Of a stretch of 64,000 bases of DNA, positions 32,230 through 64,000 are shown piece after piece. Both the position numbers and the translations under genes were made by a program. How positions within the stretch are numbered: the first letter of the stretch is position 1; each line of letters begins with the position of its first letter. The notes beneath the pieces are model-generated. The model was not told the DNA's origin and ran no database searches. It saw only the letters and a program-made list of their open reading frames with translations. The DNA is from Styela clava (Eukaryota; Chordata; Ascidiacea; Stolidobranchia; Styelidae), in NCBI RefSeq assembly GCF_964204865.1, contig NC_135257.1, forward strand, positions 7,648,151-7,712,150, written 5' to 3'.

Positions 32230-32722
32230 TTCAAATATTTTTTTTCTTCATATTCAGTTTCAGTTATACATTTAAAAGAGGTATTGATGAGATTCCACAT
32301 TGGGTTAATCCAGAGCATGTTTCATTTTTACGTGAATCAAAAATATTGCAATAACACATATTTTATTGTGTACCACATGTATACCAAAAAGGATAGATAG
32401 TTTGAAGGCGACTGGCGCAACATCATTGTTATGAGCGATCAATAGTTTAATATTAGTTCAATATTATCTGGATATCTGTCGTCGTTTTATTAGGAGTGTT
32501 TATAATGCACACGATGGATATTGTTACAGATCTAACCTTGAATTTTAACTAGTTAAGGTATGTAGTGGGATTTATAGAGGCAAAAGTACAAACATAGCCG
32601 TAAATTAGTAAAAACAGAATTGATTATGGACTCGGTAAAAATGATGTGGACTCGAAATCGAATCCGAGTCCAAAAAATGCCTGGATTCGACGAGTCCGGA
32701 TTCGAATCCCGGCCCATCCCTA
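32230..32722 (-). mobile_element. Truncated copy of the TAGGGATGGG hAT element
   Basis: Reads on the minus strand from TAGGGATGGGCCGGGATTCG at 32722 and matches the left and middle parts of the fuller element at 50556-52413 (shared GACTCGGATTCG words, CGACGACAGATATCCAGATA and the stretch corresponding to 51590-51850). It lacks the 820-bp MITE present in that copy and so provides its empty site. The far end is missing. Confidence 0.8.
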
Positions 32723-34200: not shown

Positions 34201-35080
34201 TCATCCAGAATGTTCAAATAAAAATTGAAATAAAGTTTCACTACCACGCCGTTAACAGTACGAGCAAGGCCGCAGAGCAGTGAGCACCGCTTTTTCGAAA
34301 ATAGGGGGAAATGGTTAAGGCAATGCTACGCGGTGGCGCAATGACCGCCGAAATAATTAAATCTAAAGGTCCCATGCGACTCGGAAAATAATAGAAAATA
34401 AAAGTAATATCGTTCTTGTGGCTCCAACCATTCACAAAGAACAAAAATGGGAAGTCGATTGGTCCGTTTGTTGACAAGGAAGTTTTTTTAACAACAACAT
34501 AGCCTATGTACCTTTCGTGCCCAATAAATTATAAAGGAGATCAAAACATTCGGGACCTGTCAAAAACAGTCTTTAGAAAGATATTGAAAGTACTTTGTTA
34601 TATGTATATATATAACCCATCATGCCAACATTGCACCACTCATTGTAAAGAATAGAATTTCATAGAATTTTTAAATAGAATTTCAATTTCAATAGAATTT
34701 CACAACTGAATAGTCGGCCACCAATGTTTATGTCCAAATACATCCAACGGAGTCTATTGAATAGCATCAAACAAAACCTTCTGACTTTCAGCTCTCAAAT
34801 TGCTTTTCAGCCAGGACTTGCTAAAACACAAAGAAACTCGTTGGCGAGACTGCAATCATAATACACGATCAGACAAAGAAACGAAACTAGTTTAAAAATT
34901 CCCCCATTTGATGAAAGCAGACCCAATATATGTCAAAAAAGTTATTGTTATTACACAAAGGTTGGATAGACGGGAAAAGTAACTACGTTTCAATTACAAC
35001 CAATTAGATATAGCCTAATTATACATATCACTTAGTGTATATGTTGCATTCAGCAAGCGTGGGTAAATCTTGTTTCAACG
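34201..35080 (+). promoter_or_regulatory. Upstream region of CLCA-A, duplicated before CLCA-C
   Basis: This segment and the following exon 1 and start of intron 1 are repeated from 62557 onward with high identity, apart from about 150 extra bases in the right copy near 62990-63140. It must contain the CLCA promoter. Shared blocks such as CTCTCAAATTGCTTTTCAGC and AATCATAATACACGAT just upstream of the ATG are candidates for conserved control sites, but recent duplication alone explains the identity. No TATA box can be assigned with confidence. Confidence 0.6.
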
Positions 35081-41000: not shown

Positions 41001-44000
41001 GGTTGGCAGTAAACCTTTCGGAAGATGGTTTTCATTAATGCAAATTGTATTTATGTATATCCGATGATTTCATTCATATCGTTTTTTTGGCATTAGATGA
41101 AACTCGTACACCTACGATCAGTTGTGAATCATATTATCAAAGATGTTCTGAGTACTGGTTCATATGTGGGACTTGTTTCATTTGAATCTATATCGTTGAT
41201 TTTGGCTCAACTCACAGAAATTTCTGATACTGACAGCAGAAATGATTTGACAGCACTTCTTCCTGGCACAGCTAGCGGAGGCACGGGAATTGGAAGTGGA
41301 ATTCGGAAGGGAATCGAAGTATGTTGCTTGTCATTGCCGCAACCGAGTGGGTTGATAACGTGAAGTGCCTATACAGACGGCTCATATGCATATAGAGTCA
41401 ACTAAATATATATGCATATACATCCAATACCCTATATCAGTGGTTCCCAAACTGGGGGTAATTACCCCCAAAGGGGTAATTTGGCAATTTTTGGGGGTCA
41501 ATCCAGACGTTCACTGTTTTAACAATTTCCTTTGTAATCCCCATACTTTTTGACTAGTCTGCTCAAAAGCTGGACATGTAATGCTCGCATCTGGTCAATG
41601 AGCCTAGCCCTAGTCATTTAGTCACCACTGTATTAGGACGTACTAACTTCGCCGTACAGATTGTGGGCTAAAATGCTGAGCTAGCGCAGGTTTATCATTT
41701 TAAAGTCAAGTCTTTGGTTAAAAGTAATAACGATATGACTGCTGAATTTTTATGAGGGGGGTAATTGAGATTTTGGTAATTCGATTTAGAGGTAACAATA
41801 TTGAAAAGTTTGGGAACCACTGCCTTATATGTATATACAGCCAACCTAACATACGTATACACACTATACAGACAGCCAAAGCAATATACAAAAGCCAATG
41901 TGATATGCATATACGGCCTTTGAAGCAATGCTCATACATAGCCAGTGTCACATGTATGTGTAGTCAACGCTCTATACATTTACAGCCGTTAAAATGTACA
42001 TACATACATAGCCAGTGACATCTGCAAATTATAGACAACTCAATATACTTATACATTTATTCAAATAATCTACAGTTGAGTCAAGTTAATTTTTTTTTTC
42101 CAACCAGTCAAAAAGAATCATATACAATAGTTAAAAAAGTGTCTGCGTCAATGTTATATGTATTTATTATCCAGGTAATATACATATAGATCCGGTTGTT
42201 CAATATGCATACGAGTATACAGCCGTTCATGCAATGCACATACACAGAAATATCATATGTACAAATTGTCAACTCAACATACTAAAAACATATATTTAAG
42301 TGATGTGCAATGTCATATGAAGCCAACAAAATATACATATACAGCTATTTTGAGGGATGTACAAACACAGTCAATCTGTTTCATATCGTCACGCTAATAA
42401 CTGAATTGCGTAAGTCATTTTTAGCAGTTTTGAGAAAAACGTAAAAAACTTCCTAATGATATTGTTATGCCATTGAGAGTCAATAATTTTCCTTGGTTCA
42501 GTTTTTTGATCGTATCCGGATTTAAGTTAATTTGTATGACGCAGTTAAGTGACGTCATAATGGCGCATTGTGACTTAGGCAGAAATGTGTCTTTGACTTG
42601 GGGACATACGCAATTTTGCAACTTTACTATATGCACCAGTCCTGAAAACTAAACATTTCAAAAACGAATGTAATTCTCGGTATCTACAATGTCAAATCCC
42701 CAAAATAGCTAATCAGTTTCAATTACATTATTTTTTATGTTTAAAAATATATATTTCATCAATATAACACGTTCTGCACACCCACCGAAATAAGACTAAG
42801 ATTAAATATAAAAAATAAAACAGCAATGCACCCCGTATAAAAGCCAACCAAGGTGATTTGGACTCGGACAGTGAATATCACAAGTGCATGCCCTCTATAC
42901 TGTAGTATAAAATCAAAATAATACGCGCTAAGCTAGAATCCGAGATGCAAAAACTCGAAAATACTTCGCCGAGGTTATTTTGCCTTTGTGATGTCACAAT
43001 AGTCCTGCGGTAACAATGGATAATTCATCATGACGAAACAATTGCACCAATGTGCATGTCATACTAAATCTCCATTTTTATGGGTTTCGGAATTCTTAAA
43101 ATAAAATCTGAGTAAACAGACAGGTGCGCAGCATTACATAAATACTTATTTTATAAAAAACTCAAAATCGCCAATAAGGACTTACGCAATTCGGTTATTA
43201 GCGTGACGATATGTATGCACTCTATGTGGGTGCTGCGGCAATGCGGTTGCGTCCACATTGTCTATTGCGCACATAACTTGTGGGTCTGAACGTAAATACG
43301 ATACGTAAAGAACCCGTCGCTCGTTGCGGATATATAGGTATATATATTGGACGTCGCAATCTAAAAAGTCATATCGCATTACAACAGCTGATCGCTCATA
43401 TCACGAGTGCGTTGAAATGGCTTTACATGGTATTTACGCATAATAGTCAGCGCCGGATTAACCATTAAACCAGGCCTGCCCTACCTTTTTCGTCTCGCGG
43501 GCCACTTTCACGTGACGAAATCGGTCGCATGCGGCCCGCCGGAGTGTTTTTTTGCGGCCCGCTCTATAAAGTTTGTGAGCAGACTTTTTAAATTTTTACA
43601 TACATTTTACTATACATAAGTATCTTTTGTGATTTGGGTGTAATTATTCCTGCCATCTATGTACGTCCAAATGCCGGTTTTTATTATTCCGTATGTGTCA
43701 AGTCTTGCATCCTGTTGGACATAAACGTATTTTTTTTTTATTTCTCGAAAAACTGTGCACCTTATTCGACGAACTATAAAGATATTGTTCGATCATTGGG
43801 AACAAACGCTGAGCACAATATTTTGGGTACTGGTCCCCGGCCTCGTTGTCTTTTTATGTTTGTACTTTTGTTCATGTTATGTTCGCGTTAAATAAGATTT
43901 TGGAAATGTCGTCACTGCGTATTCGTCAATAATTCTGATAAAATTGACGTAATGGCATTGCTACTAATGAGTTACAAATCAGTATATATCGACTATTCGT

Positions 44001-47000
44001 TTAGAAATCTTCGTTATGTTACTTCATTAAATACTTGTATTGGTGTTTCAAATTTTACGAAACGGCCCACTAAAACTTGATATTGCCGCGGCATTGACGC
44101 ACATTATGCTCATTTTAACATTAAAGCAGTATCGTAGCTACTGAAAATGAATGAATAAAACCACTATAACGCAAATATAACACTCAACTTTGATGTGTTT
44201 GTTTTTGGCGTGGTCGCCAAAAAACCGCAAGTGTGTTGTGTAATGATTGATTCTTTGATTCGTTGCTCGAGAGTGTTATGTCCACGCCCCGTTCATCAGA
44301 TATTCGAATAGTAAACCGCTATTCTAATATTCGAATAATTTGCCAGCCCTACCCAGTAACCAGAAAGCAATTATTAATTTGATTGATTTCAGGTTAATAA
44401 ACTCGCCTTTTATGTATTATGTAATTACCTACAGTGTAAGCCTTTTTAACGCACTCGTCATAGGAGCGACCAGCTGTCTGGGACAATATGACTTCTTAGA
44501 TTGCGACTTCTCACATATCTATCCATCCGCCACGAGCGGCGGATTCTTTAACTATGGGTGCAGCATATAGCCTTTATAAGGTGCATGTATGTGGAATGGA
44601 TTGACTGTGTTTGTACAACACCTGCTTGGCTGTATATTGGAATGGCTGTCTATACATATGGCTTTGGCTGTGTACGTATATTTGGTTGACTTTATATAAG
44701 ATGGTGTATACTGCATACCATACCATATATTCTTGCCTCTATATGTACGCCACGTATCTAACACTATAGATACTAAATTATTGATTTTTTTTAGATACTA
44801 AAGTTCGATGGTGGACAGCCAGCTGGTGGAATATTGGTTGTGTTAACGGACGGACAAGAGACACAGCTTCCGTATGTCGAAAATATTGCATCTGAAGCAT
44901 TGATGGAAGTAAACGTTGAATATTTTTTTTCATTTCAATGTCGTTTTAATTCATATCTTGTCATCAAAACGATTTTACTTTTACAGAATGTTATCATTCA
45001 CTCAGTTTTTATTGGAGTGAGTGATACCAATGTAAACCATGATTTAGCAAGTCTATCGGAACAAAGTGGAGGAAATTGGTATTACAGCGATGGCACTACT
45101 AATACTGCTTCTCAATTGACAAATATAATTGCAGCACTGACAAAGTCAAAAGATGGAGATTTGTCTTCTGAATCTATTCAGGTTTAATTTCCATTCCTTC
45201 CCCTGTTTCATGTTAACGGTATTTCTTTTCTATTTCCCAATATTTCTCCCTCGCTAAATTCGACCTTATTTTTTTTTTGTTAATTGCTTTTTTCCTAACT
45301 TAGTTCATTTTTTTGTTCAGTTGGTGAATCGTAATGAAAATCTAAAACCTGGAAGAATTGTTAGTTCAACCGTGGCAATTGATGGGTCGGTGGGAAAAAA
45401 TACTGTGTTCACGTTTACCTGGGACATTCAAGAACCAACTGTTGAAATAACACCTCCTGGTCGATCGTGTATTTACTCCAACCGTATTTCATCACACAAG
45501 AGTTATTGTGACGGTTCCCCAATACACGAGGTGGAGGAACAATTTTCGTCAGTGAGATTTGTCATCCCAGAAACGGTTAAAGTATGTAAGAAGTTTCTAA
45601 TTTTCGAACATGTTTTGAATATACGGTATATATATCAAAATTTATAACCTATCAGTGAGCATTTAGAATTCAATGTTTCATGGAGTTTTTCATGCAGTGG
45701 TATTTTTGATGGACCGCTCTGTTTAACCGGTATATTTTCCTTGGCTGCGTGACCTACCATTGATGATCCCTCGATATGATCGAATATTTAGATTTCCGGT
45801 TTATATACAGGATTCTGTTATATTTACAGCCTGGTACTTGGGAATATACAATACAAAGCAATGTATCAGACGAGTCAACTGTCACGGTTACATCCACTGC
45901 ATCAACTGGCGGTAATCCTGTAACAGTCGAAGCAAAAATTTTGGCTTCCGACGTTTCAGAAAGCAAGGCAGCTGTCATAATAGCTGAGGTAGTGGTGGCA
46001 ATTGAAACATATTTGCATAAGTTGAATGACTAAATAATAATATATTGCAATTATGTTTAGGTATTTCGGAATGGTTTGCCAGTGTTGGGAGCGTCTGTAA
46101 ATGCAACTGTGGTTAAACCCGACAGTACAACTTCTAATGTTATACTCCTTGACAACGGAAAAGGTATGCGGCATCGATCAGGATGTATTACAATGTTTGT
46201 GTACATAGCCTGTTTCTTGTTTTAATGCAGTCTCAATGTTTCTCCTCTTTTTTATACAAATATAAATTATGGAATCTCAGAATCCCATTTATTTTCTTAA
46301 CAACAGGTGCTGACTTTAAGAAAGACGACGGAGTCTATTCAAAATATTATTCCAATTTCAATTCCAAAGGAAGATATTATGTTGAGGTAATCCACTGTAT
46401 GAATTACTGAAGTACTTATTATCAGTGCCGTCAAAACGAGATAAAAATAGTTTTGTTTCGGCTAACTAAACTAAAAACCATCGAAAAAATCGGCTTCCCA
46501 TTATTTGATTATTTCCAAAGCGTATAGTGTTCATTTTTTTATCTATATTATACTGCTTATAATTTATATGTTTTGTTTATTTTGAAACTGAATTTTTAAT
46601 ACCTCATATATTTTTCAGGTATTAGTGTTTAAAGATGACGCATCGCACGAAGAAGACGGCGCTCAAGGTTCCCGTTCAGCCACAAGAAATGGTAAAAACA
46701 AGTAGTTTTGGCGACTACATAAATAAATATTCAATGTTGTGAATGTCATTAAACCGCTCATGGGAACATTTTTTTTATAAGCGCCCAACATGAAAGCCAG
46801 AGTTAAAAAGTTTTTTTATTACTCCTTTACACTGCACCAACGTATTCTATTATCATACACACTGCCCTAAACTCCGCAGTCAACTGTAATGTTTTTAAAT
46901 ACTCTTAAAAATCGTACATTTTACTTGTGAATATTGACTTTATCATAATGTTACGCTGGATATATTTCCAATCCTAACAATTCCCTACAGATTTATTCTA

Positions 47001-50000
47001 CAAACAAAACGCATATTCTCATCCAGACTCTTTAAACACCATAAACGCCATCGCTGAACGTGATCCTCGCATATGTGACCTGTTTACCGAACCATGACCG
47101 TAATATACATATGAATTTAGATGTCTTTTGATATATTGTATGTGATATTTGCATACTTTGTTATTGGACACAGTGGGCCTAATACCCTTCTATTGCTGAA
47201 CTCTTTTTCGTAGTTGTATAAAAATCGCCTCTTTCCACATATGATGGACCAATGTTTTGCGCGATTTTCGAGTCCATATATTTGAATTTTGAGCATTACA
47301 TTTCTGTTTCTGGGAGAATCACGGTAGCTAAATTTCTCTGTTTTATACTATTATATTCAGTAAAGCTTAATGCATGTATGTTGCTCACGAATACTAACGT
47401 TAACATCATAGGTACATTTGAGCAGGGGGATACCCAAGCAGCAAGCATTGAAGGACCTTTACAGAGAGTTGCCTCTAGTCCTGGACTAGCATACACTGGG
47501 TAAGTTGAACATATGCATGTATATATTTCAATTAAAAAAGGTGGTCACGGCTCGGAAAAACTGCATTACAAGACAGGGAGGGTATAGATCAGGGGTCACC
47601 AACATTTTCGAAGCCGAAGGCTACTTTTTGGGTACAGATTAAGCTGCGGGCTACCAGTTCAATGTACACTTTTAAAAAAATTAGTTGCCCGATTAAGCTT
47701 CAATTATTGATATAATTACTGGTATTTAGTGAAGTAGAGACATTAATAAACTTTAGGATTCTTCAGGAAATCAAACGATTATCATAACGTTGCAAATAAA
47801 TTTCTATCAATAACACATGTATTTCAAAACTGAATGTTTTCAAATTGAATTTCAACACGCTGCACAAGTCTAAGATAAAATGGACTAATAAGCACCGAAA
47901 ATTTTAAAATGGTAAAGAATAGGAAGAATTTTCCGGGGTCAAAGGTCGGTAAAGGTCAGTTGTACTATCAAATGTTGCAGAGTATTATACTCCGACGCGT
48001 AACTTGACACTGTAACTCTGAGCGAGTCTTCAGATTTTCATCAGTGAGGCGTGTTCCATGTTTGTTCTTGTTGGAGTGAGTCGCGGCGCTATGGCCCATC
48101 GTGTTAAGCGTTAGGTTCGCAGGCTAGAATCCCATGCGGGGATAGTTATGTGCGAAAGGATTGCTGGACTCCTCGCGCCGTAGGGTGGTTCACGTAACCG
48201 CTGGTCGGTTAAGACTTCCTTCGCCATCAAGTCCAGGCTTCCGGAAACAAATAACTAACTAATCCCATACCCGACATCGAATGGTAACCGGCGAGAAGCC
48301 GTGGTTTGTCATTGGGTTAAGCAGTCCTATCGGCTATCTTCTCCCTCGGGATAAATATGTAAATCTCCTCCTATCCTGAGTTTTTGTCAAAAAAGTTGAT
48401 TCGAAAGGATAGGTTGAAACAAACGATGGTCTCGTAAAATAGGATTGCTGTATGATTTGAATCGCGAGCTTTTTCTGTCCGTTCTGTGCTGACTGCTGAC
48501 CAGTGGGTAGTTAGCGCAGAAGATTACGTGACAAGATGTGAAATATCTCTCCGCTTTGCCGTCGCTAAAATCGCCCCACTAATGAGACACACGCAGGCTG
48601 TTTTCATGGTGGTATAAATTTATCCACCTCCCATTCATCGTGCAAATGATGGATTTTTCTTTGGAATCAATAATTGTATTATTACTGCTCCGCTAACCAA
48701 CGGACAAGAAAAAGCGCGGGTTCGTGGAAAGTGATCTCAGTGGGATGTCATAATTAGGAGAGTGTCAATTGACCCGTCACATTACTGAGGTCAAATAAAA
48801 ATAAGGTTGATGGTTACAATAATTAATATAGTGTCATTTCTAGTTCCCATATAAGTGTGATTTATACTAAAATAGCAGGACAAAATATAATTGATGTAGC
48901 TTACTTATAAGAGCCGTTAATAGGCTTAGTTTGGAACAGACCTGTGGGCGGCTCATATGGTCTTCGCGGGCGACTTGGTGCCCGCGGGCAACGCGTTGGT
49001 GATCACTGGTCTAGATGAATGCGGCTTTTAGGTTCAACCACGATAAAGTGAGAATGGGCGCTTCCCAGTCAATTTCCACTTTTTTTTCAAGCTTGGGACT
49101 TTTTGATCCTCATGCTCAAAGATTCGGCAGTTTCAAAAATTCACGGATAATCATAATATTGCATTCTAAATTCTTGAAAAAAAGTCATGCAGTGTGTCTC
49201 ATACTACAGTTGAATATCATTTCATGTTTTTTTTATTCTCTTCTTGGTATTACAGAAGTGTGTCAACAAGTGATACTATTCCACCCAATAAAGTCATCGA
49301 TCTTGAAGCTAAACAAGCTGATCTAAGCGACGCTTCAATCGGTGTTCACCTCAGTTTCACATCACCTGGAGACGACTATGATAGCGGAACAGGTAATATT
49401 GTCTTTGTCCCGAATACAAACATGTAATACAATCTCATTGCGGAGTCAAATGTCATGTAGGCTACTTACGAAAAAATGTAGCTGTCGGTGAATCATAAGG
49501 TCTGTTTTACAAAGCCCTTTAAAATAACTTTGATACGAAAAGTACCAGATTAATATTAAGGGCGATATATATAGTAGGCTTTTGGGGAAAAACATATTAT
49601 TTGCAATGAATGAGAAATGTAGTACCTTGATATGAGGCTTTATTCAACTTAAATCTAAAGCACATTTAGAATGAATCTATAATAAAATATAACACAAGTA
49701 AATTTTATTAAACAAGAAAACAAATACGTAGCGATTTGCTGATGCTAACAGTAAGCGACCCAATAGTTAAATGAATAAAGTTGAAAGATTTAACATACTA
49801 CATCTACAGCACAGCAATAATTGATGTCTGATTAAAAACGCTTCAGCCATCATCGCTAGACTGCAGCAGTATGAGTTACATTTACAAGTTATTACATTAT
49901 TTACCATCGCACGGTAATTGTTGAACTAGGTCAGGGGGCCGTGGACAACCCCTAGCACGCGTGCCAAAATTGGCACACGAGCCCATTTATTCGGCACACG

Positions 50001-53000
50001 AGCAAGGCCTCGGAAACGAGATCATTCTCGTTCAGATGAAAAGTTTCAAGACTGAATTATCTGATGAAACTAAGGTGTTCGTTAATTCATTATCATTTGT
50101 TACCAATCTGTTAGTTAGCTGTTAGCCATGGCATGAGTATGCCCATCGTTGTCACGCGTAAAATTGAAAAAATTAAAAATAAAATAAAAAACCGAAAATA
50201 AAAGTAAAATAAAAAAAATAGTGGTGAAAAAACATAAAAAAATAAAACAAAAATAAAAAAAAATAAAAATGTAAAAAAAAAATTAAAAATAAAAACGAAA
50301 ATAAAATAAATACGAAATAAAAAAAAAGCAAAAAAAAAAAAAAAAAATTGAATAAAAAGAAAATAAAAAGGTTGACAACGATGGTCCGCCTCGTGGCCCA
50401 TCGTTGACACGCGTTTTTATTTTGAGAAAATTTGCTGCTGATTGGGACCAACGTTGTCAGGAAAAGTCCTACGCGCACAAACAGTGTTCCATGGGGTTCT
50501 AACTCACTTCGAATTTCCTTGAGCAATATTCAGTATGAAAATCTTTTATAAATTCTAGGGATGGGCCGGGATTCGGATCCGGACTCGGATTCGGGTCGAA
50601 TCCAGGCATATTTTGGACTCGGATTCGATTTCGAGTCCACGTCGTTTTTACCGAGTCTATAATCAATTCTGTTTTTACTAATTTACGCCTATGTTTGTAC
50701 TTTTTCCCCTATAAATCTCACTACATACCTTAACTAGTTGAAATTCAAGGTTAGATATCGTCACGCTAATAACCGAATTGCGTAAGTCATTTCAGGCGGT
50801 TTTGAGTTTTTTATAAAACAGGTATTTATGTAATCCTGTCTGTTAACTCAGATTTTATTTTAAGAATTCCGAAACCCATAAAAATAGAGATTTTGTATAA
50901 TATGCAAATTTGTTCAATTGTTTCGTCATAATGAATTATCACTGTTAGCGCAGGACTATTGTGACGTCACAAAGGCAAAATAACCTCGGCCAAGGATTTT
51001 CGAGTTTTTGCATCTCAGATTCTAGCTTAGCGCTTATAAATTTCAATTTATACTACAGTATAGGAAGGCGTGCACTTGTGATATTTACTGTCTGAGTCCA
51101 ATTCACCTTGGTTGGCTTTAATATAAGGGTACATCGCTGTTTTATTCTTCATATTTAACTTTAGTCTTATTTCGGTGGATGTGCAGAGCGTGTTGTATAT
51201 ATTGATGAAATATATATTTTAAACATAAAAAATAATGTAATTGAAACAGATTAGGTATTTTGGGGATTAGACTTCGTATATACTAAGAATTACATTCGAT
51301 TTTGGATTGTTTGGTTTTCAGGACTGGTACATATAGTCAAGTTGCAAAATTGCGTATGTCCCCTAGTCATAGACATATTTCTGGCTAAGTCACAGTGCGT
51401 CATTATGACGTCACATGACTGCGTAATACAAATTACCTTAAATCCGGCTACGATCAAAAAATTCAACCATGGCAAATTATTGACTCTCAATGGCATAGCA
51501 ATTTCAATAGGAAGTTTTTTACGTTTTTCTCAAAACTGCTAAAAATGACTTACGCAATTCGGTTATTAGCGTGACGATATGTAACAATATCACCCGTGTG
51601 TATTATAACACTCCTAATAAAAACGACGACAGATATCCAGATAATATTGAACTAATATTAAACTATTGATCGCTCATAACAATGATGATGCGCCAGTCGC
51701 CTTCAAACTATCTATCGTTTTTGGTATACATGTGATACACAATAAAATATGTGTCAGCGCAATATTTTTGAGTTTTCAATTTGCGTAAATAAATATGAAA
51801 CATGCGCTCGTTCAACCCAATGGGAAATCTCACCAATACCTCTTTTAAATCGAGTTTATTACGTGCAATCCTTTCTCTAAAAAGGGAGCAATGGAAAGCA
51901 TGGAGCGTTTCAGAACGTTTACATGAACTACTAAATTGCAAGCATTGTATTGACGACGAGTGGCATCTTTCTACCATTTGCACACGCGGCATAGTAAATT
52001 TAAGGCTAGAAATATCTGAAATTATGGGAAAGCATTGTAGTCAAAAGCTTTTTATTTTCCTATTTGACATGTAAGAATTTCTAAATAGCCGCCCAGAATT
52101 AACGCAAGGTGGTGGGCTGTAAATCCAGTTCACAGCCAAGGCGCACATTGACCCACGTTTACGTTTGTATTATGGCCGCCAAAAAAGACGAAAAATATAT
52201 TTTTATATTGATTCAACAGCTATCTGCGGAACCATTAGGCAAAAATATGAGCTACGACGTATGTTTGTGAGCGCGCGATTCTGTAGTATGGTCGAAAACG
52301 TGTTTTTCTACTTTTACATTGTGACGTCACGGACTCGGAGGATTCGATTCGAGTCCCTGACCTATTACTCGGATTCGTCGAATCTCTGTAATGCCGGACT
52401 CGTCCCATCCCTAATAAATTCTCCATGCTACAAGTTCAACTACAAGTAATATAATTATAATAATGATAAGAGAATATAGAATTGGATACGAAAATTCGGA
52501 AAATTTGTTTTTACGTGTAGAAGGTAATTGAATTGGAGAATGCTGCTTAACTGCTAGGTTGTCCGGACACACGTGCGATGCCGGTACCGTCTGACCAAAG
52601 GTGTTATAGTCGCTTTGCGCCAGACCGTATCGATGAAACAAATGGGAGATACGGATAGTCTAGTAGAATATAGTATAGACTACTGAAACACTCTCTGCGC
52701 CTGCCCCATACCGTACAGCCATAACATACCGATCCAGACCAATGATCCATCCCTTGATTCAGTATATTCTACAAGACTATCCGTATCTCCCATTCGTTTC
52801 ATGAGTGATTGCATGGGTACCGTTACGGTCAGACGCAAAGCGACTATAACCCCTTTGGTCAGACGGTAGCGGCATCGCACGAGTGTCCGGACAACTGAGC
52901 AGTTAAGCAGCATTCTCTAATTCAATTACCTTCTACACGTAAAAACAAATTTTCCGAATTTTCGTATTCAATTCTATATTCTTTTAACATTATTATAAAT

Positions 53001-55900
53001 ATATTACTTTTGGTTGAACTTGTAGCATGGAAAATTTATAAAACATTTTCATATTTAATTTATTGGATATTGCTCAATAAAATCAGTAGTGAGTTAGAAA
53101 CCCAGGGAACACATTTGTGCGCGTATGATTATTCCTGACAACGTTGATCCCAAGCAGCAGCAAATTTTCTCAAATTAAAAACGCGTGACAACGATGGGCC
53201 ACGAGGCGGACCATCGTTGTCAACCTTTTTATTTTCTTTTTATTCAAGTTTTTTTTTTTTTCAATTTTTTTTTTTTTGCATTTTTTATTTCGTTTTTATT
53301 TTATTTTCGTTTTTATTTTTAGTTTATTTTTTTTCATTTTTTTTTTTTTTCATTTTTGTTTTTAATTATTTTTCATGTTTTTTCACCCCTATTTTTTTTA
53401 TTTTGCTTTTATTTTCAGTGTTTTTTATTTTTTTTTCATTTTTTTTTTCAATTTTACGCGTGACAACGATGGGCCACCATACATGAGGCTACAAAAAATA
53501 TATTATGACGTAACGAATGGAGCTCTTGAGAAATTTTGTCGAGAAGAGCGCAACAGTCATTTGGTTACCTACACTGTTACGTAATATTGTTCGTCTGCCA
53601 ACCTTTTTCCTCATTTCTGCTTGATTTATGAAGTTGTACAGCTCATGTTGGTTAGAGTTACTTGCTACCTTACTGTTATAAATTGATTTCGAAAGAAATA
53701 TAAGCGATTAGGGAAGGGAATACAAGAGAGAAGTGCAGAAAACGAACTATTGCGTGCTTGGGATGCCATTCCCGAAAATTTTTCGTGTCTCAAAAACTTT
53801 GCAACTGCATTACTCTCCATGTTTTCATCTACATATGCTTGTGCATCTCTATTCATGGTTATGAGCTTTATTAGGTCTCGTAATAGGAGTAGCATGAAAG
53901 ATGAATCCAGTAGTTCGTGTATAAGTATAAACCCAATCAATGTAAAATCTCTATCATCGGTAATGCAATAGAAGTCTCACTGAAATAGAATAATAGAAGT
54001 AATCAAATCTATTTGTCGGACTGATATTTTACCGAATGCTGAATCTGGCTGTACACGTTTAAAAGGTTTACTATTGTGTATTTTTTTTAAATAAGCAAAG
54101 CGTTGTTTTTAATTTTGGTCGGCACACGGAAGAATTTTGTCGTTAGATTTAGCCGATTGTGGCACCATTGATGACTTAAGGTAATAATGGTGGCACGCGA
54201 GCCGAAAAAGGTTGCCCACCCCTGAACTAAGCCAAATGAATTATTAAATGTATACATCTCTCAAATAAGAATTATCTTTTCACTTTTACAGCTTCTAGAT
54301 ATGAGATTCGATATTCCTACGGAAGTTCCAAGCCCATAAGGATAGACTTTGCGTCACAAAAAAATGTTACGGATAATATGATCACAAAAGGCGACCTGAG
54401 TCAGCCAAAACCAAATACTAACTTTGAAGAATTTTCATTAATACTGAGAGACTTGCCGCAAAATGAAAATTCAGTTCGGTGAGATTGACGTATTTGTTTA
54501 CTATGTTTTTCACTAAATGTAACTTATGGATGAGAGCTGATACTACAATAGAAAATGGTTTCAAAAATTCTTTCAACTTTGAATCAATTATTCGGGAGGG
54601 TTGCGAAGCGCAGTATATAACTGCAACTAAAATCGTTCAGTTTTGTACATATATATAGCTCATTATTAACTTATTTCTCACAACATTCGATTCAAACTGT
54701 TCTCCTTGCACACAACCATTCTTTTTGGTGAGAAGTTACAGCTCAATTTTATTTCTCACGACAGAATCCCGCAGGAGTGTTTACGTTGCTCTACTCTTCT
54801 GTGTAGCAAAGGAATTTCTATGAATATGAGCCACTACTAAAGGACCTCCAGAAGTATGTGCGCCAAGACGGCGCACAACCTGAACATAGTATGTGTACCC
54901 GGTTAGGGTTCAGGTTATGCGCCATGTTGTTGTACATACTTCGGGAGCGCCCTACTAAATGATTATATCACGAAAAGTGAATTTCTATATGTATAATAAA
55001 TATATTTTATAGAGTTGCGTTTGCAATGCGCGCTTTCGACGAGAGTGCAAATCCTTCTGAAATCTCAAATATTGCTATGGTGACTTTTTTCATTATTCCC
55101 CCGTCAATACCACCAACAACAGAAACAGCGACGTCGGCCGCTATAAGTACAACGACTGCAAAAGAAGTTTTGGAACCAAATGGTGAGAATCCAAATACAT
55201 TTGAAGATTGAAATTTTCACATAATATATACAATGAAATTTTATGAAAATTGTATCTAAATACAATTAAAAGTAATATAAAAAAAAAAGCAGTTGGATCA
55301 TATTTCATTGATTAAATTTGCAAAAACATTTGCTGATATCAAATTCGGTTTTTCATGCTTACCATTTTTTTTAATATTATTTCATTTTTTAATTCAGATG
55401 ATCGTCTTGGATTACTTCTTGGCGTGATTCTTGGAGCAATTGGTAAGATTCGATTGTCGGACAATTGTGTGGGATAGGATAGGATTTACATATTTATCAC
55501 GAGGGAGGGAGAAGCCGACAAAACCGCTTATTCATAGGGCGAACCACGACCTCTCGTCGCCAGTCCATATGAGAATAGTTAGCCAGCTTTAGCCTATTTT
55601 TTCTTAAGGAAAAAAAGGGCACTTCCAATCTCCCCACTTACGAATGACTGCCAAAGTTCTGATCGATGGTTTTAGATACCTCATAAAAATATATTCTAGC
55701 AATATCTGGGGGCCTTTATTATTTCTATGTCCTTTTGTCGCGTAAAAACAGGTGTTAATTGATGTTTTTACTATTTTATTACAGGAGTCATCTCTCTACT
55801 GATACTTGTTGCCGTGTTTTACTGTCGCAGAAGAAGAGCATTACGCAAGCAAAACGAAGAAGCCCATGACCACACTTACGAGAATCCGTATAGAATTTAG
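35081..55900 (+). CDS. CLCA: CLCA family protein, copy A, complete, 20 exons
   Basis: CLCA proteins are secreted or membrane-anchored, self-cleaving metalloproteases that modulate calcium-activated chloride channels. Exons: 35081-35236, 37106-37243, 37482-37629, 38050-38164, 39477-39630, 40509-40760, 41097-41318, 44795-44908, 44987-45181, 45321-45581, 45830-45988, 46061-46163, 46307-46386, 46619-46691, 47412-47499, 49256-49392, 54292-54478, 55013-55182, 55398-55442, 55785-55900. All GT-AG, phases agree, 970 aa. Signal peptide 1-22; N-terminal [14 protein letters not shown]; zinc site [14 protein letters not shown] (His153-Glu154-His157, Glu/Asp following); VWA domain with MIDAS DVSGS (313-317), SGGTG and LTDGQE; beta-sandwich part ([25 protein letters not shown]); FN3-like [12 protein letters not shown] and [10 protein letters not shown]; Thr-rich stalk; membrane segment about 921-945; basic RRRR tail ending YENPYRI. 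The anchored form resembles vertebrate CLCA2, which is about 943 aa. Confidence 0.95.
35723..36887. mobile_element. 1.2-kb hAT-like element in CLCA-A intron 1
   Basis: Ends TAGGCTTGCACGTAATT and AATTACGTGCAAGCCTA are inverted repeats, flanked by an exact 8-base duplication GTGAAATG (35715-35722 and 36888-36895). Subterminal regions are full of ACGTAAT/TTCCGTAA words. No transposase frame. Non-autonomous. Confidence 0.92.
40008..40246. mobile_element. 239-bp MITE, CTCCCGAAGTATG family, CLCA-A intron 5
   Basis: Left end GGGGCTCCCAAAGTATGCGA and right end TCGCATACTTCGGGAGCACC with long inner complementarity (AAGATGGCGGACATCGGAA). Exact 8-base duplication TTTTCTAG at 40000-40007 and 40247-40254. 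Non-coding. The right end is about 260 bases before exon 6. Confidence 0.92.
41365..42385. repeat. Degenerate minisatellite in CLCA-A intron 7
   Basis: Many variants of a roughly 30-base unit built on CATATACAGCCAA/CAATGTCATATGCATATACA. It is interrupted by the MITE at 41438-41822 and bounded on the right by the MITE at 42386. The same words occur in reverse orientation at about 44565-44760 at the other end of the intron. Short frames here are not genes. Confidence 0.7.
41438..41822. mobile_element. 385-bp hAT MITE in CLCA-A intron 7
   Basis: Ends CAGTGGTTCCCAAACT and AGTTTGGGAACCACTG, an inverted repeat characteristic of hAT/Charlie-type elements. Flanks CCCTATAT (41430-41437) and CCTTATAT (41823-41830) match 7 of 8. 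Subterminal G-run GGGGGTAATT. Non-coding. Confidence 0.92.
42386..43209. mobile_element. 824-bp TA-target MITE, copy 1
   Basis: Inverted ends TCGTCACGCTAATAAC and GTTATTAGCGTGACGA, each abutting TA. The whole element is repeated in opposite orientation at 50758-51577. TA duplication and size suggest mobilisation by a Tc1/mariner-type or similar transposase. Open frames inside are conserved in neither copy as a protein. Confidence 0.88.
43213..44794. repeat. Rest of CLCA-A intron 7: undefined repeat fragments
   Basis: 43480-43570 has GGCCCGC-rich words like hAT subterminal regions (GCGGGCCACTTTCACGTGAC, GCATGCGGCCCGCC). 44285-44350 holds ATTCGAATA words ending TTTGCCAGCCCTACC, as also near 25205-25270. 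44565-44760 is the reversed minisatellite. I could not pair ends or find target duplications. Confidence 0.5.
47590..49008. mobile_element. 1.4-kb non-autonomous hAT in CLCA-A intron 15
   Basis: Left end CAGGGGTCACCAACATTTTC, right end GCGTTGGTGATCACTG. Flanks GTATAGAT (47582-47589) and GTCTAGAT (49009-49016) match 7 of 8. It contains a nested tRNA-SINE copy at about 48083-48380. No transposase frame. Confidence 0.85.
48083..48380 (+). mobile_element. tRNA-derived SINE nested in the hAT element
   Basis: Head GCGGCGCTATGGCCCATCGT with a deletion before the B-box region, body GGTTCACGTAACCGCTGGTC and tail GGGATAAATATGTAAATC, as in the copy at 14750-15060. Confidence 0.82.
50556..52413. mobile_element. 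1.9-kb hAT-like element, TAGGGATGGG ends
   Basis: Ends TAGGGATGGGCCGGGATTCG and GACTCGTCCCATCCCTA, inside an exact 8-base duplication ATAAATTC (50548-50555, 52414-52421). The right arm of the host foldback element supplies the empty site (TTTATAAATTTTCC). Subterminal GGACTCGGATTCG words on both sides. A truncated relative is at 32230-32722. It carries a TA-MITE at 50758-51577. No transposase frame recognised. Confidence 0.9.
50758..51577. mobile_element. 820-bp TA-target MITE, copy 2, innermost of the nest
   Basis: Same ends as copy 1 at 42386-43209 and the reverse-complement orientation. TA at both junctions (50756-50757, 51578-51579). The truncated relative of the host element at 32230-32722 reads GGTTAGATCTGTAACAAT on its minus strand where this copy is interrupted, so it is the empty site with one changed base. 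Confidence 0.92.
53687..53971 (+). pseudogene. hAT transposase C-terminal fragment
   Basis: An open frame of about 95 codons ending TAG at 53969-53971, with [20 protein letters not shown] followed by [20 protein letters not shown]. This is the hAT dimerisation-domain pattern (FGSTY-CE-LFS-MNFIKS-RS-L-DE) of the Charlie/GTF2IRD2-FAM200 type, with some key positions altered. It belongs to the outer hAT element at 49932-54224. Confidence 0.82.
54842..54951. mobile_element. 110-bp MITE, CTCCCGAAGTATG family, CLCA-A intron 17
   Basis: Left end GGACCTCCAGAAGTATGTGC, right end GTACATACTTCGGGAGCGCC, exact 8-base duplication CTACTAAA (54834-54841 and 54952-54959). It ends about 60 bases before exon 18, so its right flank is close to the branch-point region. 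Confidence 0.92.
55471..55562 (-). mobile_element. 3' tail fragment of the tRNA-SINE, CLCA-A intron 19
   Basis: Only the tail portion (GGATAGGATAGGATTTACAT to CGAACCACGACCTCTCGTC on plus) is present; the tRNA head is missing, as in 5'-truncated insertions. Confidence 0.8.
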
Positions 55901-56004
55901 CTATTGCGTGGTTGATGGAATTTGTTTAAATCACAACACTTCCAGAAGATTGTTAGATATTTGTATATTGTAATGAGTTATCTATTTTACGTAGAAATAT
56001 TTTT

Positions 56005-56010
56005 AATAAA
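56005..56010 (+). terminator. Polyadenylation signal of CLCA-A
   Basis: AATAAA 105 bases after the stop codon of exon 20. Confidence 0.7.
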
Positions 56011-56529
56011 TTTACTTACAAATAACTTTTTCGCGAGAACAGTTCATACTTCGGATTCGTCCCAAATGAGATTCGGTGGTCAACTTTATGAAATTTTAAA
56101 ATTTGCTAATATGAAGACATAGCAAACTGTGCCAAAATCACAATAAATTTGACATTCTGAATTTTCAAAAAATATAATTTTGAATAGCATTAATTCAAAA
56201 TTTATTTTTAAAAACCCAGATAATACATATCGAATGTATATTTACACTTTTGTCACACTGTATTCCCTCCCGATTTAATTTTATTTGATATAAACATAAA
56301 GGCTAAAAAACTTTGATGATTACGTTGCATCTCATATCATTTTATAACCTAGTTTTTTCGTTTTTGATTTTTCTTTCATCGTCTGTTATTTGATAATCTT
56401 TATTCTTACCTACAGCGACGAATATCGAATTGCTTAGTGTCGTGCAATTAGCATTGGCATCTCTGCTCTGCCCTAACTACATACACGCAAATATAGATAT
56501 AGCGTATAGGCGCGTAGGTGATTATTTGT

Positions 56530-59500
56530 GACTTTGCTGCCAATAATCGTTCCACTTCGAGCTGAACGATCGCAGTAACCCAGCATTCACGTTATCCAAA
56601 TCCACTTGACTTGCCGTTAAATCTGTTATTCTATTCGGGGGAAATATGTCGTCTGCAGTGATAGACCTGAATGAATAGTTACATGAAATATGCAGAGGAA
56701 TGATTCAACTGCAACGGTCGCATAGTTATTGTTTACTATAAACATTGGCACAGACGCAGCACAGTGTTTAATCGCAAGCATTCTTGACTTTGGACTTAGT
56801 TCGCAATAAAATGATTGACTTTTAAACGTTTTTAAGGATGGGACGTCATTAAGTAACAAAATAGCCTCCACTGACCCCGTGTATGCAAATCCTGGCGATG
56901 AAGATGTTCGTTCAATTAATTACGCCTTCAACATTCACTCCTTTGTAGACAGATGGGTTAGCAGAGTTGTCCTGATTTGAAACATACGTACCTGCTCATG
57001 ATAATATCGATCACATTATGAAATATAGCTCTACCACGGATTTAATCGAGAACATGCTAATTCTTACCATCGTCTAAAAGCATATAGCAATTAACCCCCA
57101 AATGTACCCCATTTCATGTTAAAAATATGAAAACAAAGTTAATTTTTCCCAAAATTCGAACAAAGACTTTCGTTTGAATCAAATTAATCCACTTTTAGGA
57201 AAATAACAAATTTCGTCCGGCCATTATTAAATTGAAATTTATTATATCACGATATTTAAACACTAATTTAAATAATTATATGTAAGTTCCCATCCGTACG
57301 ATGTTCATAATTACCCATATTGGGATAACAGGAGTTTCTGTTTATAACGTGAATCACGAGCTCACGTTTACAGTATTTAATTGGATTTATGATCAACGTA
57401 TAAATACGACTCGATATCTTTCAATGTTAAGCTAGTCTGGATAAATGTTTTAAAATTTGTATTCTGTGTATCGTGGAAATCTGAGAATAAAATCAAACAG
57501 AGTTTTTTAAAGTTTCTTCATTAACGTGGGCATTGAAGCTGAAGGGTGAACGAGCGACTGACTGGCTGTTCTGAGACGGTCTACTCTACGAAATAGCAAT
57601 ATACGGTGACATCACATTCATTTACCAATAATATATGCTATAAGCTCGCCTCGTCGTAGTCAGATTCTTGAATCCCATAGATTACATATTACATTTGCCA
57701 TAATATATACATGTAGTTCTAGCATTGAACATATTATACAAGTTAGGATCCTTGACCATGCCTGCACCGTTATCAAACAATTCAACAACAGAAATAGTAT
57801 CATCAGGCCTTGTAACAGTTGCATTCACACTAGCTCCAAGAACAGGCAGGAAGTTTTGAAAAACCTGATAATATACAAAATGGGATCACTGTTTTTTTTC
57901 TGAACAACAATATAGCCCAAGGTAACACATGATACCTTAGCAACTACGATTGGCGGTAACGTTGTATCATCTGAAACTTTTAATTCAGTTTCGACTGTGA
58001 TCGGATAAACGTTGAGATCGGAAGGTCTGGAAGTCACAGCAGTGGTGATTTTGTTTTCTGACGTTGAAAAAATACTGAATTCCCAAATCCCAAACTGCAA
58101 GAAATATTTGATTAGTTTGGCAGATGATGAACGAAGCTGTTACAAGCAATAAAACATCAATGCAGAAATCATAAACACTTCACCACTGTTTAATAAACCC
58201 AAATTAAAAAAAAGGAAATCAAACATTTGCTCATAAAAGCCAATCAACAAAATTTGAAAAGTTCAGGGCGCTGTTAATACATTCATTTATGATATCGTAA
58301 TGGTAGGTCACTCGTGGAGACTCGGTTCTCTCGTTTCACAAGATTTAATATCAAAGCGTTATATTAGTGAAAAGAACAGAATACTTACTTTTGCCGTTCC
58401 AGGAGTATAAAATTTAATCGACTTGAAATTTTCGTCGGTTTTGTGTATTGGGCTATCATCGCAGTACTTCTTGTTGGGGTTATTGTAGTTTGAATATATA
58501 CAAGTTGACTTTGGTGGTTTTATTCTATGGTAGGTTCGTCGTCAGTCCATTTAAAGGCAAAAACAGTTATATTGCCGACAGAACCATCAATTGCCGCAGT
58601 CACCGTATCGGGTGTTCCTGGCTTCAGATTGATGATTTTATTTAATACCTGAAAGGCAAATTAAAGTGATCATTTTTATTACAAAGAAATGAAATTTATA
58701 CTAAGTAATATATAGGGCGATTCAGAATGTATTTATGTCGATGCGTGCGTGTGTGCGGACTGTCATTTCGTATTTCTCCCATGTGAGAGGAAAACCAATA
58801 AAACGGCTAACCGCGCCGGTTGACCGTCCGTTTTACGGTTGACCGTCCGTTTTTGGTATAGTTAGACAGTTGTTACTTGTTTCAGATGTATGGACCTGAT
58901 TGGTTACCTGTACTGCGTTGGCTGAGAAATTTCCATCATCCGATTTGCTAAGTGATGCAAATATTCCGCTGAGCTGTGATACAGACTGATCAGACGTGCT
59001 TGCATAATACCATTTTCCTCCAGTTTGCAAACTCAAACTAGCCAACGAGGCATCCTTAGAAACATCGACGAGTCCAAAGAAAATAGAATCGACAACCACA
59101 CCCTGTTGTTAGGTATAAAAATTTCGGCTAACTTAACCTAAACTTCGGAACAGAATAATAACAAGCTTAGTTTTTAGGCACAAATTAATTGCCCGGTCTG
59201 CCCTACAAAACGATAAGACGTTAATTAACAGTGACGTGGTATCCAAGGTTACAACTGAATATCTGGATTGTCTATTATAATTTCACTGTGTTTGTCCTAA
59301 TTGTGAAGTTACTAGTCAAAAGCAAATTAAATTAAGCATTTGTCAGGGATTTTGATGGTACACAGATTTGATATTTTTCACAATGTGCAAATCGAGAAAT
59401 ATTACGTCATTTAAATGCTCTATCAAATACTGTTTGATGGTCAGACAGTTTTACTTATTTATTAATAATTTAAAAAATTTATTGAGAAATTCATATTTTT

Positions 59501-60528
59501 AATGAGTAAATTCTCTATATTTTCATCGTTCTCACACTCTTGATTGCCTCTGCGGTAATGTCTTCAATGTAAGGTTTCGCGTTTTCTTCTCCATCTATAA
59601 GAACAATCAGCTGTCCTCCTTTCGGAAGTTTTACCACGGAAGGAAGGAATGGAAGACCATTTTTACTCAAGACCTGTGTACAAAAAAGCCACTCACTCAT
59701 CAAAACTCAGGCAATTTTTCAATGTTACCGCACCTTAATTCCTTCCAGAATTCCAGCACCAATACCGGTGCTTCCATTCACACATGAAGGGAGAGACTTG
59801 ATCATCTTTTCTCTGTTTCCGTCATCATATCCAATTTTAGTTAAAGGTTGAAGAACAACAGCTGATTCAGAAAAGGCGACAAGACCAAGCGTCATACCAT
59901 CACCGAGTAAACTTGATATTGGTAGTTCGGATGCACTTCTGAGATCATTCAATCTTTTCTAGATTACGTTTTAAAGAATGTACACGGGTTAGCAAAAGGA
60001 TTGGATATATCCAACTGGGTTTTCGTGTAAACATCAGGTTTAATTATATATTAGATATTATAGTTTAAGTCCTGTTCGTTTGAAACGTTCGAGTTGTTTC
60101 TGGAATAAATAAAATGGTTAACATATAAAATGTTCGTATTGAAACTCAATTTCTTAGTTTTTACCCGGGGAGAGAAATGAATACTTTGCCATGCACATAT
60201 ATAACAGCATTTTTTACTATTATTTTCTTCATATGCATTAGAAATATGGCACCCGTGAATTTATACTTACTCCGTACATACTACCAGAAATATCCATAAT
60301 TAGAACGACTCGCTTGGGTCCAGGTCTGACTATCATAACAATAGGGTCTGTATTCTGTATTGTAGGATTTGTTGGATTCACTGCACCGTTTTTATCCATC
60401 GAATCCACCGAATTCAATATAACGCCCCATGTACTTCGGTAATCGCATTGTCTATTATGGTTATTGGGTGCTTCTTTATTGTGTACATTCATGGGATCTG
60501 ATATTTCATCGTGACAAAACGTTGAAAC
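56530..60528 (-). pseudogene. CLCA: CLCA paralogue, copy B, inverted and decayed
   Basis: Minus-strand exons matching CLCA-A exons 6-11: 60271-60528, 59734-59958, 59536-59673, 58908-59102, 58389-58648, 57936-58094; exon 12 from 57864 down to about 57759. The VWA domain is well kept: IMDISGSMYG (MIDAS), NGSTGIGAGI, LIDGEE. Exon 10 is 260 bases where 261 is needed: one base is lost near 58523, giving a stop in frame. Exon 12 is followed by GC instead of GT. Weaker matches continue: exon 15 (SSSPGFAYTG, about 56874-56952, frame disturbed) and exon 16 (FPPNRITDLTASQVDL, from 56666, eroded at the GDDYD site). Exons 1-5 (signal peptide, zinc protease), 13 and 14 are not found, nor clear 17-20. A transcribed VWA-only protein cannot be excluded, but the lesions favour a pseudogene. 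Confidence 0.85.
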
Positions 60529-62556
60529 CTAATATAAAAATTCGATATTTTTATTTCTGGGTAGTTGAAAAAATACAACTTATAGCATATAAGCGTAAAT
60601 TCGTCTGTTTATGACAATATAATTTTTTACACTCCACAAGTTCTGCTACAAGATATAACACTGATGATGAAATAACTATGTGGGGCTCAATCGCCGTGAT
60701 TGCCTATTGGTTGTTTCGTTGTTTTACTGTATTATTATTATAAACAAAAAAGTGGCGAACTTGAAACTTCTGACGTAAACAAAACAACACGATTTTTAAA
60801 GTGTTTATCCGGTATAAAATCCTCCATTTAAAAACACGTCACGTTTTAATGCCTAAAATCCATGATTTAATTATCATGCTAAACATATTCATTTGTTTTA
60901 TGTCTCTATTCGTTGCCATCTATCTCACGAGTTGCAGCGGCGAATCGTGTTCTTTTGTTGGCGCTGGATCTTTCAAGTTCACTCCCATTTTTATCAAATG
61001 TAAGGACAAAATACTTCAACGAAATAATAATAATAATAAAACAATTAAATTCTTCAATTAAAGAAATATGCAATCTCTACGATCGAGCCTGCCTGGACCG
61101 AAACGTCTGGTCCGTAACGTCAGTGGGCCGAAGCCCGAAACGTCGGTATATGATATACCCCCAGCCAAAACGATTTGCAATTTTAACAAATTAAAATAAT
61201 ATTTGGTTTCAGGTTTGAAATCCTGAACGCTAATATCTGGATGTAAACTGGCTCGTCTGATTCGTTAACTTTTGCAGTTCAGTCTTTATTTGCTCTACTT
61301 TCAATTTATGGGGGAGTGTATCATTACCGTGGCATGAGATTAAACATCTAGAAGTTTACAACGTCCTTACCAATGGCAGTACAACGAAAAAGAGAGATTT
61401 TATTATTTTGTCAACCAAAAAATACAGTCATCAATAAAATAGCCACAACAAATAAACTGTTTGGTATGGACAGGAGGGAGCGATACGACCATACATACGG
61501 TCATCGAAGTCAGCTCCCACCATATACGCTGATGTGATTAAGATTAACACTGAAAAATGACCAGTGACAAAACTTGAACTATTACGATAATATTTTTACA
61601 ATAAATTTGTGAACAAATTGAGGGAATCCTTAGGTAAAAGCAATGTAGTAAACAAACAAAAAATAGGACAAAAAAGTGTCGGGGGTGTCCGGTGTTGCAT
61701 TCGTTGAATAAAACAATCTAAAAGGCCAGAATAATGTGATGGAAATTTATACTTGACTGATTAATAAATTCAATGGGGTTTGGACGATAATATTCAGAAT
61801 AAAATAAATAAGCTGGCTATATATACAAAGTGGATCAGGGAATTGATGTGATGAGAATGTGTCTGAACGTGAAACAAAAATTGAGTACAACTAAGTGGTA
61901 CATACACATTACTGAAAAAACTAACACACTGAATAGGGCAAAAAGAAATTTAATTTATAGGTTGCATGAACTTTATATAAATATGTTTGGGATTTTTACG
62001 ATCTTGCACTCCAAAAATGTTAATACTTATCAATAAGTTTTAGAAGATGGGTTTTGAAAACGTTTCTGACTAACGTCAGAAAGGCGTCACCCCTTTTTGC
62101 ATCGGCGAATGCGGAAGCCGCATGGTCAAAGGTTATGAATGTCCATAATCAAGGGAAATTACGGCATCAACAATAACAAATAAATTACTACGCAAGTTAA
62201 ACGGACGCAATGTTTAAGTCAATACAAAAATCAAGTGAATGCGATTCCCGATGTAACAGTATGTTTATTCTTCTTTCCGTCTATTCTTCTGTTACTTCTT
62301 CCCGTCTAATTTTTCTGCAGTACATTTCTCTTTAGGCTAACATGAGTTAGTAATGGCTGATGTTTAGGAATGATTTTTTTACCTTCAAACTAATTAACAA
62401 ATGTCTAGTAAACGATAATTTTGGCAATCTTCCATTTAAGCTACCACATTAAATTCCAGAATTCATACTGTATATATATTTATATGGACGCCGCATATAT
62501 ATGTTCAATCGCAATACTGCTAGCTTATGCGATTCACATTAAAATCCGTTGTGTAG
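60529..62556. other. Intergenic between CLCA-B and the CLCA-C duplication
   Basis: No CLCA exons 1-5 seen on the minus strand and no other gene. 61085-61165 has repeated CCGAAACGTC words (GGACCGAAACGTCTGG, GCCCGAAACGTCGG) and 61392-61550 shares sequence with 25975-26130. The rest is AT-rich with simple repeats (ATA units at 61023-61040). Confidence 0.5.
61392..61550 (+). repeat. Second copy of the dispersed repeat at 25975-26130
   Basis: GCGATACGACCATACATACG and GTCAGCTCCCACCATATACG correspond to the words in the first copy, with GATTAAGATTAACA downstream in both. Family unknown. Confidence 0.5.
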
Positions 62557-64000
62557 TCATCCAGAATGTTCGAATAGAAATCGAAATCAAGTTTGACTAC
62601 CACGCCGTTAACAGTACGAGTAAGGCCGCAGAGCAGTGAGCACCGGCTTTTTCGAAAATAGGGGGAATGGTTAACGCAATGCTACGCGGTGGCGCAATAA
62701 CCGCCGAAATAGTTAAACTTTAAGGTCCTATGCGACTCGGAGGATAATAAAAAATAAAAATAATATTGTTCTTGCGGCTCCGACCATTCGTAAGGATTAA
62801 AAATGTGAAGGCGATTGGTCCGTTTGTTCAGAAGGAACAACAACATAGCCTACACACCTTTCGTGTCCAATAAATTATAAAGGGGATCAAAATATTCGAG
62901 ACCTACCAAAAGCAGTCTTTAGAAGAATATTGAAAGTACTTTGTTATATGTATATAATTATATAACCCTAATGCCAACATTTCATTAACCATAATGGCGT
63001 GATTTTGTTTCACGACTTGCGCCACATTAAAGCTCCGCGATTTTATTAAACAAAAATCACGTGTAAAAAAATGAACTGATAATTGAAACATTTAGAGGTT
63101 ATATTTCATAAAAATCTCGTTTCGTTTAACATTGTAAAGACAATCAATAGAATTTCACAACAGAATCGTCGGCTACCAATGTTTATGTACAAATACCTCC
63201 AGAGGAGTCACGACCTCCTTAAATAGCATCAAACAAAACTTCTGACTTTCAGCTCTCAAATTGCTTTTCAGCCAGGACTTGCTAAAACACAAAGACACTC
63301 GTTTGCGAGACTGCAATCATAATACACGATGAGACAAAGAAACGAAACAAATTAAAAATCCCCCTATTTGATGAAGGCGGACACTATTTATGTCATTGTT
63401 ATTACACAAAGGCTGGGTAGACGTCAAAAGAAACTACATTCCAATTACAAACAATTAGATATAATTATACAAATCGCTTTAGTTAGAGTATTTGTTGCAA
63501 TCAGCGAACGTGTGCGAATTTTGTTTCAACGATGATTTCTTATCATCTAACTGTAATAGTATGCTTATTCCAGATTGTCAATTGCTTTTCTTCTCAAACA
63601 GTACTTGTCGACAATGGTTATCGTGGAGTGGTGGTCGCGATACATCCAAATGTGACAGAAGATCAAAATTTGATTGACGATATCAAGGTAAGATTTAGGG
63701 TCACACGAATTGTTGTAACATAAATCAATAGGCGGTTCCTTATTATCATGCATATATATATATATATTAGGGTTGCCATACGACACTTTTTCCCGGAAAT
63801 GACCGCGGTTTTAGTGGTGAAATTTGCGTCGGGGAGAAATGTTGAAAAGTGCTTAAATGTCAGGAATTTTTGAATACAGTATTATCCCTGCCACAAATCC
63901 TCGAGTTTTTAGATATTGCGCATCCACAAGTCGATATTTTCAGAGATATGTCGCATGAAGGCTTTGTTGTGCAACACGGCCTGCGTTACATTCAGGTAAT
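62557..64000 (+). repeat. Segmental duplication of the CLCA-A 5' region
   Basis: Matches 34201-35590 in the same orientation up to the window edge: upstream region, exon 1 and the first part of intron 1 (for example TTTTTGAATACAGTATTATC). The left boundary is sharp at TCATCCAGAATGTTC. Differences are mostly substitutions plus an extra ~150 bases near 62990-63140 and a different short segment just after the exon 1 donor. Confidence 0.9.
63532..63687 (+). CDS. CLCA: CLCA copy C, exon 1 (gene continues past window)
   Basis: 156 bases, 52 codons, identical in length and phase to exon 1 of CLCA-A and followed by the same GTAAGA donor. It encodes a signal peptide ([20 protein letters not shown]) and [15 protein letters not shown], the start of the CLCA N-terminal protease domain. 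It differs from copy A at three residues (Arg/Gln in the signal, Ile/Val and Val/Ile in the mature part), all conservative for function. The remaining exons must lie to the right of base 64000, so whether the gene is complete is unknown. Confidence 0.9.

Follow-up and report, generated by a model that had tools for sequence, protein, structure and literature searches.

Four nested DNA transposons in one CLCA intron of Styela clava, the innermost very probably brought in by its carrier

Transposon nests, and the interruption of one element by another, serve to place bouts of transposon activity in sequence, the inner element being presumed the later arrival. In a survey of Drosophila melanogaster nests (PMC1794594), 6 of 294 nests are "tertiary", with a path length of 3 and four elements; 215 of the 294 lie in pericentromeric regions, and LTR elements are the commonest partners. 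The survey also notes that a DNA element may transpose together with whatever has inserted between its two ends, and proposes transposition of a pre-existing nest for jockey2 in Cr1a. For the classes of element that concern us here, PMC8151067 and PMC2874221 describe the target duplications of Tc1/mariner and hAT elements, and PMC9635669 gives CAYATATRTG as the Tc1 target consensus. Deep nests are rare but known, and the nest reported below is a clean new case of this known kind.

The window, a 64,000-bp stretch (C9:7648151-7712150) of a 376.6-Mb genome that is known here from assembled sequence alone, contains four DNA transposons, one inside another, within a single intron of a chloride-channel-regulator (CLCA) gene (Table 1). 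A sequence-only reading had proposed this four-level nest in a CLCA intron; the nest is real, the nesting, element classes and junctions all hold, and the proposed spans are base-exact for the outer hAT remnant, the inner hAT ("hAT2") and the TA-MITE. For the remaining element, a foldback, the presence of long inverted arms stood and the ends did not. Empty sites are known for every level of the nest except the insertion of the foldback into the hAT, a putative step for which the evidence is the terminal bases, a duplication matching at 6 of 8 positions and a domain on one side. In a literature search confined to titles and abstract openings, which says little, the nest is named nowhere; an Rfam scan at the gathering threshold returned no match.

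Table 1. Features of the nest and of its surroundings, in window coordinates
Feature	Position	Strand	Remarks
CLCA intron holding the nest	49393..54291	+	4899 bp; GT..AG, in-frame join, TIGR00868 spanning the join
Upstream exon ("exon 16" in the sequence-only reading)	49256..49392	+	start inferred from an AG
Downstream exon ("exon 17" in the same numbering)	54292..54482	+	frame continues to a stop codon
Outer hAT remnant, level 1	49932..54224	+	ends CAGGGG..CCCCTG; Dimer_Tnp_hAT; missing from the paralog intron
Outer hAT left duplication AACTAGGT	49924..49931	+	
Outer hAT right duplication AACTAAGC	54225..54232	+	6/8 match to left
Foldback, level 2	50138..53481	.	arms; CATGAG at 50132-50137 and 53482-53487; earlier given as 50141-53474
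Left foldback arm	50141..52672	+	broken by 50556-52413
Right foldback arm	52762..53474	-	unbroken; level-3 empty site
Inner non-autonomous hAT ("hAT2"), level 3	50556..52413	+	TAGGGATGGG..CCCATCCCTA; ATAAATTC at 50548-50555 and 52414-52421
TA-MITE, level 4	50758..51577	+	TA at 50756-50757 and 51578-51579; same insertion in L009
Second MITE copy	42386..43209	-	upstream, same gene region; ~9% substitutions
hAT2 copy without MITE, truncated	32269..32722	-	GATC subfamily

The exons on either side of the nest join in frame (CAG/GTAATA ... TTTTACAG/CT), and the TIGR00868 hCaCC model matches across the join (profile positions 750-811, E 1.2e-8), a fragment match that is far under the whole-protein cut-off. 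Four of six upstream frames match the same model in order (9-53, 243-319, 323-402 and 488-538), and those at 44795-45187 and 45767-46033 gave no match in the TIGR00868 library search. Pfam CLCA matches at 40 kb and also, at 25.4 bits and slightly below the cut-off of 25.6, at 35 kb. Searched against Pfam, the exon pair returned only a weak Endotoxin_C match (E 0.087), which we take as chance, and against solved structures it returned none. Set between intact splice sites, the nest would be removed with the intron, and lengthening of the intron is the only effect of the nest that is shown.

The CLCA gene has undergone tandem duplication, with 34184-35574 aligning to 62540-64000 at 83-86% in blastn, and a further CLCA gene begins at ~63.5 kb and extends past the window end. 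On the minus strand, a second CLCA-type gene at 55472-60657 has a 3' end that appears decayed; its exon-16-like stretch loses similarity ahead of the splice site, and a search nearby gave no match to exon 17. Elsewhere in the window, a 1016-aa open frame with endonuclease and reverse transcriptase domains (728-3778) represents a non-LTR retrotransposon, and an uninterrupted 693-aa frame on the minus strand (11394-13475), with AAA and peptidase M41 domains of FtsH/YME1L type, is perhaps a retrogene.

The two ends of the outer hAT are only modestly alike past their first six bases: the local alignment score of the terminal 80 bases is attained in 35 of 2000 shuffles. Its transposase is recognised only as a C-terminal piece, a Dimer_Tnp_hAT match at 53687-53971 (E 4.5e-5; 23.6 bits, Pfam cut-off 21.4). 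In the 30 kb following the window we found a tandem CLCA paralog, 14 kb past the window end, which provides a built-in nest-free control. Its copy of the same exon pair (78250-78390 and 78689-78877 in continued window coordinates; protein identity 94% and 86%) encloses a 298-bp intron that contains nothing of the nest. The two introns align to 49920 and resume at 54231, and ten bases at the outer target are absent from the paralog, which thus appears to be a near-exact rather than an exact empty site for the outer level; because those 10 bp are missing, the paralog may itself have undergone excision. The paralog also lacks some 300 bp that lie to the left of the nest in the window intron. A search at E 1e-6 of the 184 kb surrounding the window recovered no further copy of either the outer hAT or the foldback, and it showed the MITE again at 42 kb. 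Among the sequences compared, the only match to either of these two elements is one of 40 bp to the outer hAT right end (82.5%, E 4.7e-5) at L042:2290-2329, immediately beyond the right terminus of an inner-hAT copy.

The foldback has arms of ~0.7 kb each around an 89-bp middle. With gaps counted, blastn identity is 85.8% for the outer parts of the arms and 80.6% for the inner part, self-aligned together with the middle; with substitutions only, the arms are 92.6% identical over 664 sites. No duplication lies at the ends first proposed, 50141 and 53474, whereas shifting them outward to about 50138-53481 places CATGAG on either side, a better but weak solution given that at least 6 bp are duplicated in ~1.9% of 20,000 random flank pairs allowed equal freedom. 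An A-rich block, bordered by CCATCGTTGTCA in opposite orientations, opens each arm, and the arms therefore appear modular. The inner part (626 nt) folds at -399.9 kcal/mol (z -35), with 0 of 20 shuffles as stable, and the RNA hairpin predicted for the inner arms would be very stable and a possible editing substrate. Another large inverted repeat, containing tandem arrays with units of ~172 and 151 bp, lies at 15464-18743 and is possibly a second foldback-like element.

Within the left foldback arm, the 1858-bp hAT2 is surrounded by an exact 8-bp duplication, ATAAATTC, as the sequence-only reading had it, and on alignment of the two arms the right one passes the hAT2 site without a gap, as expected of the level-3 empty site. 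A genome search with the hAT2 left end produced 264 candidates; 40 were scored, one being the copy in the window, and the 39 others were read. Exact 8-bp duplications surround 29 of these 39 copies (7 are not exact and 3 unmeasurable), and hAT2 is therefore a real mobile family. Two hAT2 frames had no match in Pfam, and the element is filed as hAT-like by its ends and duplication only. At other positions of the element, three copies (L037, L042 and L049) have 0.7-0.9 kb of sequence that does not align, probably other insertions. A near-complete hAT at 21926-24946, with CAGTGGCGGCGCG ends, a 7/8 duplication (ATACTTAA/ATACCTAA) and two overlapping frames bearing DUF4371 and dimerisation domains, was considered as transposase source for hAT2 and dropped, as the ends differ.

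The 820-bp MITE has terminal repeats of 49 bp (92%) and TA on both sides in both window copies, a combination that fits a Tc1/mariner-type MITE. Its end matched nothing in the viral-contig or the genome-contig collection, from which the species' own genome was possibly left out. At the MITE site, 37 of the 39 other hAT2 copies read through and one (L009) is filled; in L046 the match stops exactly there, and the right part of hAT2 was sought and not found. A clean empty site, GATATGTAACA, is present in eight copies (L011, L013, L014, L016, L018, L037, L038 and L049). The region 32230-32722, which had been put forward as the empty site of the MITE, is indeed uninterrupted at this point but is a fragment, with homology over ~32269-32722, one hAT end and GATC in place of the target TA. 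GATC at this position marks a subfamily (L024, L035, L036, L039 and L042-L045), within which the 32-kb copy falls. Because the flanks of the two window MITE copies agree (20/24 positions alike), we at first suspected a footprint model, with GATCTG in the 32-kb copy as an excision scar and a MITE extending out to CATATCG; this was rejected, as GATATGTAACA is unfilled in eight copies and GATC belongs to a subfamily. Flanks as alike as 20/24 are reached by 45 of 200,000 random TA-site pairs and by 1777 of 50,000 Tc1-like TA-site pairs.

The copy that bears on the order of events is L009, on another contig (C17), the one composite besides that of the window among the 39 other copies scored of the 264 candidates. 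In it the same MITE interrupts hAT2 at the identical base, and the copy has its own exact 8-bp duplication, CTGCGCAC versus ATAAATTC here; the hAT2-MITE composite has therefore moved as a unit at least once. The window and L009 copies are 2.4% apart in hAT2 (1032 sites) and 1.7% apart in the MITE (816 sites), and the 42-kb MITE is 8.8-9.5% from both. At three hAT2 columns the two share a state absent from all 17 or 18 lettered others (19 others aligned), and a tree places their hAT2 parts as sisters, at a node printed without a support value, with L011, which has no MITE, joining next (support 95). Private changes in hAT2 number 20 in the window and 4 in L009, with the majority of the 19 other copies as reference and one site undecided; in the MITE they number 9 and 4, with the 42-kb copy alone as reference and again one site undecided. 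The totals of 29 and 8 differ (binomial p 0.0008) on the assumption of equal mutation rates, with the MITE part alone not revealing the imbalance, and a locus by a long hairpin might mutate faster, which would make L009 a possible daughter. Given these unequal private changes, the window locus is unlikely as the source of L009, and the MITE most likely joined the hAT2 source before hAT2 reached the foldback arm. The innermost MITE thus very probably arrived already inside its carrier. The earlier claim that sequence fixes the order of events fails on this second composite, with its own duplication, and on the 29:8 count: nesting and empty sites reveal which element contains which, but not the time at which each part arrived at the locus. 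As the two different exact duplications indicate, an inner element can travel as cargo, so that the order of landings at a locus may be misread from nesting alone.

Divergence provides a rough scale for the landings, whose ages are inferred from it. The paralogs differ by K2P 0.109, or 0.055 a side (1835 sites outside the two exons, which may include other exons), and by a lower 3.4-4.8% inside the intron (184 sites). The foldback arms differ by 0.078, or at most ~0.039 an arm, a figure that is an upper bound for the landing because the arms may have differed beforehand. The composite at the window locus has 29 private changes over ~1848 sites, near 0.016. This rough ladder fits an order of hAT, then foldback, then hAT2 with its MITE, although the landing of the outer hAT would be dated only by its absence from the paralog.

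What is directly observed is the nesting with its junctions, the composite at a second locus and a paralog free of the nest, and the history that we consider probable, taken as a full scenario, is one of three landings in the intron, the last being that of a preformed hAT2-MITE composite. An ordinary CLCA-family intron would have received three cut-and-paste elements. A hAT would have come in first, most likely once tandem duplication had produced the neighbouring paralog, and only a remnant of it is left; the foldback would have landed inside this remnant; and a short non-autonomous hAT2 would have landed in the left foldback arm. The TA-MITE would have inserted earlier into the hAT2 source elsewhere and been carried as cargo between the hAT2 ends, and the composite would have landed at least once more, at L009. 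We infer that the transposases acted in trans. A strictly outside-in history, in which hAT, foldback, hAT2 and MITE each inserted at this locus and the composite later moved out to L009, agrees with the nesting topology and the empty sites, and the divergence ladder runs in the same direction for the paralog split, the foldback and hAT2; yet source and daughter should then gain private changes equally, and with the observed imbalance we judge such a history unlikely.

For the MITE to have inserted independently at one position in two hAT2 copies, that position would have to be a hot target, and the target GTTAGATATGTAAC is nearly palindromic; the likeness of the flanks of the window MITE copies is what target preference would produce. 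The MITEs of the window composite and of L009 are, however, 98.3% identical, their carriers are sisters with states missing in other copies, and 37 other hAT2 copies are empty at the site, which together render convergence very improbable. The nest might be an assembly artefact, as long inverted repeats, and repeats in general, are difficult to assemble; the exact 8-bp duplication at hAT2, the base-exact junctions and the identical composite junction on another contig make an artefact the least credible reading of all. A bolder extension of the three-landing history, to which we give little weight, is that hAT2-MITE is a chimeric family still spreading and that larger units (foldback, hAT2 and MITE together) may also move whole. 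If so, deep nests could be built from preformed parts.

The MITE flanks partly resemble the Tc1 consensus CAYATATRTG (PMC9635669). As in the hAT superfamily (PMC2874221), hAT2 has an exact 8-bp duplication and the outer copy a putative one (6/8), the ends suggest short terminal repeats, and the outer copy retains the dimerisation domain; a difference is that the outer copy is a fragment and the inner element appears non-autonomous. The foldback has in common with Tetris (PMC4079207) long modular inverted arms and no recognised transposase gene, whereas Tetris duplicates 8-10 bp and the present foldback 6 bp at best. The nest as a whole equals in depth the tertiary nests of D. melanogaster (PMC1794594), at path length 3. 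In contrast to those nests, its members are DNA elements and its setting is a gene intron, and two exact 8-bp duplications of different sequence demonstrate the movement of a composite.
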